Both the position numbers and the translations under genes were made by a program. Positions 6,730-12,157 of a stretch of DNA of 32,556 bases are shown here, piece by piece. The notes under the pieces are model-generated. The model was not told the origin of the DNA. It did not search any database and saw only the letters and a program-made list of their open reading frames with translations. Source of the DNA: an uncultured cyanobacterium (GTDB lineage: Bacteria > Cyanobacteriota > Cyanobacteriia > CACIAM-69d); NCBI GenBank assembly GCA_937883785.1, contig CALGDE010000065.1:1-32556 (forward strand). The letters run 5' to 3'. Positions within the stretch are counted from its first letter, which is position 1, and each line of letters opens with the position of its first letter.

Positions 6730-7662
6730 ATGTTTTCCAACCCTATCCCCAAAGCCACCAAATCCTCCCTGGTCACCTCAGTGGCGACCGTTGTTGGTGC
6801 GGGAGTTTTATCCGCTGGTTCAGCCGGTGCCCTGACAATTAACTTTGACGAAGGACTAGCAGGGACTCCTGGAGACAAAACCCGGATCACCAACCAGTAT
6901 GAAAAAGACTACGGTGTGACCTTCAGTTCCAAGAACAATCGGAACGTTGATTATGGCCTTGTTCTCTACGACACTGAGTGCATCAGCCGACGGAAAGGCG
7001 GCAAGGATTCTATCTCGCTGAACGGATTCCAAAACAATGTGTGCAGCGGGAAAGATGAGGACCTGGCAACAGGTCGTGGGAAGTACGGCAACTACGATTA
7101 CGACACTCCTCTTCAGGGCAACGTCCTCATCCTTCAAGAGAATAAGGATTACGGCGACCCTGACGATGACGCGAAAGGAGGTCAGGTAACCCTCAATTTC
7201 AACACGGATGTGAACTCCCAGAATCTTTCCTTCATCAACGGCATCACTCTGGAGAAGTTTGGTTTTGTCGATCTTGATGAAGCGATGCTCCGAAACAAGA
7301 AGCTGTCCTTCGTCTTTGAGTATGTAGACCCCGACCGTAGCTCTTTTGTCATTGATAAGAACAACTACGATAACTTCATTGAAGAAGTGATCTTGTCTAC
7401 GGACTGGGATGGCGATGAGTTGGACGGTGATAACTCTTTGCGAGAGTACACTTTCAACAATGACAATGGTGATTTCGACGCCATTAAGAACATTACGGTT
7501 GAGTATCACCAAGTCAGTGGGGCGATCGCCTACGTTGAGTATGATGGAACTCCGCCAGTGGAAGTCCCTGAGCCCGGCATGTTGATGGGGCTGGGAGCCT
7601 TTGCCCTAGGTGCTTTTAAGCTACGTCGTCGTAAAGATGATGATCTGAATAGTGGCGAGTAA
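6730..7662 (+). CDS. PEP-CTERM sorting-domain surface protein
   Basis: This 310-residue exported protein has an N-terminal signal region (SSLVTSVATVVGAGVLSAGSAGAL, about residues 12-35) and a Gly/Asp/Asn-rich body of about 240 residues. It ends in a classic PEP-CTERM tail: VPEPG at 279, a hydrophobic helix (MLMGLGAFALGAF) and basic KLRRRK. That tail is recognised by exosortase, which cleaves and anchors such proteins, usually in species that make exopolysaccharide. The acidic body with DGDELDGDN-type stretches could bind calcium; this is inference. No exosortase gene is in the window, so the processing enzyme must be elsewhere. The ATG lacks a strong Shine-Dalgarno sequence. I do not recognise the body domain. 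Confidence 0.85.
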   Translation: MFSNPIPKATKSSLVTSVATVVGAGVLSAGSAGALTINFDEGLAGTPGDKTRITNQYEKDYGVTFSSKNNRNVDYGLVLYDTECISRRKGGKDSISLNGFQNNVCSGKDEDLATGRGKYGNYDYDTPLQGNVLILQENKDYGDPDDDAKGGQVTLNFNTDVNSQNLSFINGITLEKFGFVDLDEAMLRNKKLSFVFEYVDPDRSSFVIDKNNYDNFIEEVILSTDWDGDELDGDNSLREYTFNNDNGDFDAIKNITVEYHQVSGAIAYVEYDGTPPVEVPEPGMLMGLGAFALGAFKLRRRKDDDLNSGE

Positions 7663-11156: not shown

Positions 11157-11229
11157 AGTGATCTCCTATTTGATGACGGGCACATGCCCTTGCCGGTACC
11201 GCATTAAAAATTGAATTGATGGGTCTAAA

Positions 11230-11253
11230 TAAATTCGTCAATCGATGAATTTA
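11230..11253. promoter_or_regulatory. Candidate TetR operator upstream of the amine oxidase
   Basis: TAAATTCGTC and GATGAATTTA form a 10-bp inverted repeat with one mismatch around a 4-nt spacer. Length and symmetry suit a TetR-family dimer. The right half-site recurs in the GNAT/TetR divergent promoter. An A-run at about 11261-11267 (U-run on the leftward strand) lies just beyond and could mark the end of the GNAT transcript. Confidence 0.6.
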
Positions 11254-11336
11254 TCACCCAAAAAAAAGACTGAACCGGACTGCCTTTTGAAGCCTGTAGC
11301 AGCGTCGTAATTCTCTGGGAATCGAACCAACGCTTC

Positions 11337-12005
11337 TTACAGGTGCTGGAACATCAGCCAATACTGCTGTCCACTGGCCGACGGAACCTCGGTATGAGCT
11401 TGCTGGAAGCCTAGATACTCATACAAACCCACATTTTTCGGATTCTCAGTGCGCAGCCAGCAGGTGGAGTACCCCTGTTGACGCATCTGCTCTAGAGCGG
11501 CATGAATCATCTTCTTTCCCAGACCCTGACCCGCTCGATCTGGGTGCACACCTATCGCCCAAAGGTAAGCAAAGTTCTGAGAAGCGTGGCGAAGCAACGC
11601 CTGTTCACATACATCGTCATGATCTACTAGACGCTTAAAAGCGGCTGGTCCCAATGACAGGGGCAAACCAAGTGCCCCACTACGAAATATGTCTAGAAGG
11701 TTGGCAGTATTGGGAAAAAATTCACCCGGCACCCAAGCCAGAACCCCGCCACCATCTGGCGTTGCAATCACTTTACCGTGGCGCTGACTGAAGTAAACCA
11801 GCGGGAAAAAGATCTGACTCAACTGCTGAATACGCGTAGCACTATGGGGCAGCACGTAGGCCATGAAAGAGTCTTGCGCAAAAGCCTGACCCAAGACCTT
11901 GGCGGCAGCATTTTGCTGGGCGATGGTCAGCGGCTCTACCAAGGATGAATGGGGCGTAAGGCTGTTGTTGGCAGTGTTCATGTTGGGGGATAGCGGGCGT
12001 TTCAT
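11337..12005 (-). CDS. GNAT-family N-acetyltransferase
   Basis: This is a 222-residue acetyl-CoA-dependent acetyltransferase. The acetyl-CoA-binding motif A is WAIGVHPDRAGQGLGKKMI, containing the R/Q-x-x-G-x-G/A signature (about 150-168). LRTENPKNVGLYEYLGF follows, typical of the C-terminal half of the fold. The N-terminal half (AFAQDSFMAYVLP) resembles GNAT enzymes that acetylate drugs or small molecules rather than ribosomal proteins. GAGGA lies five bases before the ATG at 12005, supporting this start. It is transcribed divergently from the TetR gene 152 bp away and lies upstream of the amine oxidase on the same strand. A detoxification or tailoring role is plausible but not proven. Confidence 0.85.
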   Translation of the reverse strand: MKRPLSPNMNTANNSLTPHSSLVEPLTIAQQNAAAKVLGQAFAQDSFMAYVLPHSATRIQQLSQIFFPLVYFSQRHGKVIATPDGGGVLAWVPGEFFPNTANLLDIFRSGALGLPLSLGPAAFKRLVDHDDVCEQALLRHASQNFAYLWAIGVHPDRAGQGLGKKMIHAALEQMRQQGYSTCWLRTENPKNVGLYEYLGFQQAHTEVPSASGQQYWLMFQHL

Positions 12006-12054
12006 ATAAATCCTCGCTGAAGCAAGTAAATCGCAGCGCCTAAAAATCCTACGA

Positions 12055-12092
12055 TTGATGAATCTAAAATAGTTCTACACTTGATGAATTTA
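12055..12092. promoter_or_regulatory. Two candidate operator half-sites in the GNAT/TetR divergent promoter
   Basis: TTGATGAATCTA (12055-12066) and TTGATGAATTTA (12081-12092) are direct repeats 26 bp apart. They carry the half-site seen in the palindrome upstream of the amine oxidase. The opposite half is degenerate here (about 5 of 10 positions). The placement between two divergent starts suits autoregulation. Confidence 0.5.
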
Positions 12093-12157
12093 TTTTGTCA
12101 ACCCCTTTCCGTTCCTGTAGGCTCAAGGGGGCACGACAGGCATAAGGAACATTCCCT

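Follow-up and report, generated by a model that had tools for sequence, protein, structure and literature searches.

In the tetA/tetR system, both divergent genes are controlled from two operators in the intergenic DNA between them, and TetR regulators that are transcribed divergently and lie less than 200 bp from a neighbouring gene usually repress that neighbour (PMC3511530). QacR-type operators are occupied by a tetramer on one 28-bp palindrome (PMC4482099). The locus analysed here is contained in 32,556 nucleotides of DNA from an uncultured cyanobacterium (the window). As in tetA/tetR, a gene of the TetR family is divergent from its putative target, and two palindromic candidate operators lie in the shared intergenic region. 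Unlike the 15-bp operators of tetA/tetR, those described here span about 24 bp, including a 4-bp spacer, the predicted targets are enzymes and not an efflux pump, and an extra operator is present at a third promoter. Two dimers are expected on one promoter, as for QacR, but each on a palindrome of its own, and the two palindrome centres are 26 bp apart.

The locus very probably constitutes a ligand-released, autoregulated repressor circuit of the tetA/tetR type that controls tetR itself and the genes of a GNAT acetyltransferase (GNAT), a flavin monoamine-oxidase-like enzyme (AO) and a lipoxygenase-like protein (LOX). No description of such a TetR/AO system was found in a literature search. The TetR group and its operator appear to be undescribed and the regulatory logic itself is textbook (tetA/tetR); the interest of the locus lies in the enzyme set and the signal, not in that logic.

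Genes of the locus

The features of the locus are listed in Table 1. The TetR_N domain of the regulator (PF00440, residues 14-60) scored 38.5 bits against a cut-off of 24, and the protein was predicted to fold into an all-helical structure of nine helices (pLDDT 88.2). A search with the predicted fold returned 242 PDB matches at E ≤0.001, and those listed were TetR-type regulators. Some of these fold neighbours have structures that contain choline, benzamidine or N,N-dimethylmethanamine, a weak hint that the ligand of the regulator may likewise be an amine. BetI, a choline-sensing TetR-family repressor, was the best NCBIfam match and covered most of the protein. Identification of the regulator as BetI was nonetheless rejected, as the scores of 47.6 and 46.5 bits were far below the curated cut-offs of 201.3 and 118, and no betaine genes were identified beside the regulator.

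Table 1. Coordinates of predicted genes, candidate operators and promoters in the window.
Feature	Position	Strand	Basis and remarks
TetR-family regulator (tetR), 198 aa	12158-12754	+	Pfam TetR_N (PF00440), 9.9e-10; fold model and PDB neighbours
GNAT acetyltransferase (GNAT), 222 aa	11337-12005	-	Pfam Acetyltransf_1, 1e-12; divergent from tetR
Flavin monoamine-oxidase-like enzyme (AO), 460 aa	9774-11156	-	Pfam Amino_oxidase, 1.4e-63
Lipoxygenase-like protein (LOX), 510 aa	8127-9659	-	Pfam Lipoxygenase, 6e-18; 114 bp downstream of AO
Candidate operator unit O1, tetR-proximal	12068-12092	+	ATAGTTCTAC-ACTT-GATGAATTTA at 12069-12092; 38.4 bits; equivalent in 8/8 loci
Candidate operator unit O2, distal	12042-12066	+	AAAATCCTAC-GATT-GATGAATCTA at 12043-12066; 31.0 bits; 26 bp from O1
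Candidate operator unit O3, AO promoter	11230-11253	both	Near-perfect palindrome; 32.4 bits on +, 31.2 bits on -
Degenerate fourth half-site GATGGGTCTA	11218-11227	+	26 bp from O3 right arm; in shared 39-mer; weak
Predicted divergent promoter TTGACA-N18-TAGAAC	12069-12100	-	Faces GNAT here, AO in most relatives; overlaps O1
Predicted tetR promoter TTGTCA-N17-TAGGCT	12093-12125	+	Consensus match only; -35 overlaps the opposite-strand -35 box

The closest structures to AO included a monoamine oxidase (8p84, 2e-68), a cyclohexylamine oxidase (4i58) and a putrescine oxidase (3rha). LOX is assumed to be co-transcribed with AO, which is probable; the same gene order recurs in one of the related loci (L079), where LOX is 81% identical. 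We know of no description of an AO-LOX gene pairing. The starts of GNAT and tetR are 152 bp apart. AO stands about 1 kb from tetR, a distance larger than usual and one that counts against the proposed circuit. Elsewhere in the window, positions 6730-7662 encode a protein in which a PEP-CTERM anchor motif was weakly matched (E 8e-4), narrowly missing the cut-off.

Candidate operators in two promoters

A preliminary description of the locus had placed one half-site upstream of AO, inside an imperfect palindrome of 24 bp, and twice, with one copy changed, in the GNAT/TetR promoter. Indeed, a search of the window located exact copies of GATGAATTTA at 11244-11253 and 12083-12092, and a copy with a single change, GATGAATCTA, at 12057-12066 within the GNAT/TetR promoter. 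The copy upstream of AO is the right arm of a 24-bp palindrome, TAAATTCGTC-AATC-GATGAATTTA (O3). Its left arm (11230-11239) is the opposite-strand counterpart of GATGAATTTA with one change, so that the arms are complementary at 9 of 10 positions. The two half-sites of the GNAT/TetR promoter are the right arms of two 25-bp units, O1 and O2, spaced by exactly 26 bp or about 2.5 helical turns. The symmetry of O1 and O2 is poor (5/10 arm positions), and is exceeded by that of O3. A complete tandem pair at AO was considered and rejected: the distal unit there (11203-11227) contains only the degenerate half-site GATGGGTCTA, which was rated weak because the full unit scored 8.6 bits.

A scoring matrix was built from 14 units at the loci of six relatives, with the window left out of training, and was applied to the window and the retrieved loci. 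The three highest-scoring sites in the window were O1, O3 and O2 (38.4, 32.4 and 31.0 bits), and the next scored 17.9 bits. The maximum over 300 simulated Markov windows was 20.7 bits, and the best other genomic locus among the candidates checked with the matrix reached 19.6 bits. No operator site was found at three more distant TetR relatives (L022, L074 and L080; matrix scores ≤10.3 bits).

Conservation of the operators in related loci

Relatives of the window tetR gene were retrieved from five other genomes, and seven of them encode proteins 64-78% identical to the regulator (one, at L025, interrupted by a contig end). Because L076-L078 share one genome and L024 and L025 are nearly identical, some of these loci are not independent. 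In the window and in each of the seven relatives, that is, at 8/8 loci, tetR is preceded by two palindromic units with a spacing of exactly 26 bp, and the recognition-helix region DR(K/N)..SHYF is kept across the related proteins. In L023, L024, L025, L077 and L079, AO is directly divergent from tetR, with the operators between the two genes and no gene intervening. Conservation of the sites before related TetR genes, five of them in an AO/TetR divergent region, is as predicted for an autoregulated TetR regulon, and at the level of sequence supports the preliminary description, which had proposed one.

The position of GNAT differs among the loci. In L023-L025 it is found 3′ of AO, whereas in the window it stands between the two operators. 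The layout of L079 corresponds to the two promoters of the window, and its AO operator is a perfect 24-bp palindrome. The O3 region and this L079 operator, each directly upstream of AO, are identical at 39 of 46 bases (E 2e-11). Arrival of GNAT in the window and loss of GNAT in L079 cannot be ordered from these data. Neither this position of GNAT, unlike that in the relatives, nor the tandem arrangement of the sites nor their overlap with promoter elements had been part of the earlier reading.

Promoter anatomy and predicted mode of regulation

At all eight loci a minus-strand promoter of the form TTGAC(A/G)-N18-TAG(A/T)A(C/T) overlaps one operator unit, which is the TetR-proximal unit at every locus but L078, whose middle unit of three is the one overlapped. 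A plus-strand promoter toward tetR, T(T/C)G(T/C)C(A/C)-N17/18-TAGNCT, is likewise present in 8/8 loci. A sigma-70 promoter scan returned no match in the window because the -10 box of the divergent promoter is TAGAAC; its equivalent in relatives scored 11/12. The proposal that use of the O1 left arm as a -10 box accounts for its weakness was not established, as an identical left arm occurs in some distal units.

The location of an operator unit between the conserved -35 and -10 boxes fits steric repression. Repression of this kind, relieved by ligand, is the most likely mechanism given the analogy with tetA/tetR and the tendency of closely divergent TetR regulators to repress their neighbours. 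In the proposed model, dimers of the regulator would bind 24-bp imperfect palindromes with a consensus of about AAAATTCWWC-N4-GRTGAATTTA. Two dimers, their centres 26 bp apart, would sit side by side on the GNAT/tetR promoter and block RNA polymerase, the inner one covering the stretch between the -35 and -10 boxes of the divergent promoter. The separate operator O3 would repress AO and, via read-through, LOX. Polymerase blockage there is less clear, since the AO copy shows no evident consensus sigma-70 promoter. Release of the repressor would come from binding of a small ligand, which may be an amine or a product of oxidation, and expression of AO, LOX, GNAT and tetR would then rise together. 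For a cyanobacterial TetR group that appears to be undescribed, the analysis thus provides a sharply defined, directly testable candidate operator. It also joins AO, LOX and GNAT in one probable regulon, which narrows the search for a shared substrate or signal.

The same sites could be operators of a regulator that activates or has a dual function, for example by aiding its own promoter and repressing the divergent one. The operators are upstream of the predicted tetR promoter and not over it, which is the usual position for an activator, and AtrA, a TetR protein with long divergent spacing, activated its target (PMC3511530). However, in 8/8 loci the divergent promoter has an operator unit spanning its -35/-10 spacer, the classic position for a repressor, and most studied members of the TetR family are repressors (PMC3511530). 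Activation or dual action is for these reasons improbable, although it is the strongest competitor of the repressor circuit.

Specificity of the operator

The motif might instead be the site of a different regulator, carried along with the gene block. This was judged very unlikely, since the site tracks the TetR gene across changing partners (AO, GNAT and, in L078, a Coq4-like gene with a dehydrogenase) and the genomes searched contain no other instance of its tandem form. The pattern GRTGNNTYTA-N16-GRTGAATTTA had two perfect matches in the 4.84-Mb genome G000, at the AO and the GNAT/TetR promoters. It was defined once the window sites had been seen, and its uniqueness therefore counts more than its match. 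In each of three relatives' genomes, the pattern with zero mismatches occurred at the TetR promoter only. The preliminary description would have been undermined by a motif common in unrelated intergenic DNA; as far as searched, the full site was present only at the two promoters. A palindromic operator is thus shared by the promoters of the regulator and its putative target and is rare elsewhere.

The AO and GNAT/TetR promoters are identical without gaps at 30 of 39 bases (maximum of 26 in 1000 shuffles), which suggests a common origin. It could be argued that the similarity is no more than duplicated intergenic DNA and that the AO copy is functionless. Yet neither of the other two window sites is as symmetric as this copy, and the corresponding L079 site is perfectly palindromic, which fits selection and not decay; a functionless duplicate is accordingly given little credence.

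With one mismatch allowed, GATGAATTTA had 8 matches in the window against 1.7 expected, a number reached in 0 of 100 shuffles. Genome-wide, 20 exact copies were found, compared with 5 for a reversed control pattern, and 17 of the 18 copies outside the two promoters sit in stop-free frames of at least 108 codons. The decamer by itself is weak evidence for this reason and was rejected as proof of an operator. Chance repetition of an A/T-rich decamer, which these 20 copies might suggest, is refuted by the extended context, the tandem spacing and the conservation across genomes, and was accorded a negligible probability.

Related regulators and other targets

Searches of 6 genomes of the window's own order and of a 386-genome sample of the phylum detected no further orthologue of the regulator, and the same kind of search gave no further close copies of AO. 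Plasmids contained only distant TetR matches, at about 33% identity or less. It is conceivable, though doubtful, that these proteins form a small cyanobacterial TetR subfamily whose double operator is fixed, whose signal derives from an amine or a lipid, and which regulates monoamine-oxidase-like and lipoxygenase-like enzymes together. If true, this would amount to a regulated amine/oxylipin pathway.

Two related loci depart from the common gene content. In L076 (5168-5547), AO is reduced to fragments next to an intact TetR gene and intact operators, which suggests a decayed target gene with the regulator kept. In L078 (3293-5255, genome G446), a TetR paralogue is accompanied by three operator units and, instead of AO, by a Coq4-like gene and a zinc-type dehydrogenase. 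From this gene set, the TetR group probably also controls other enzymes.
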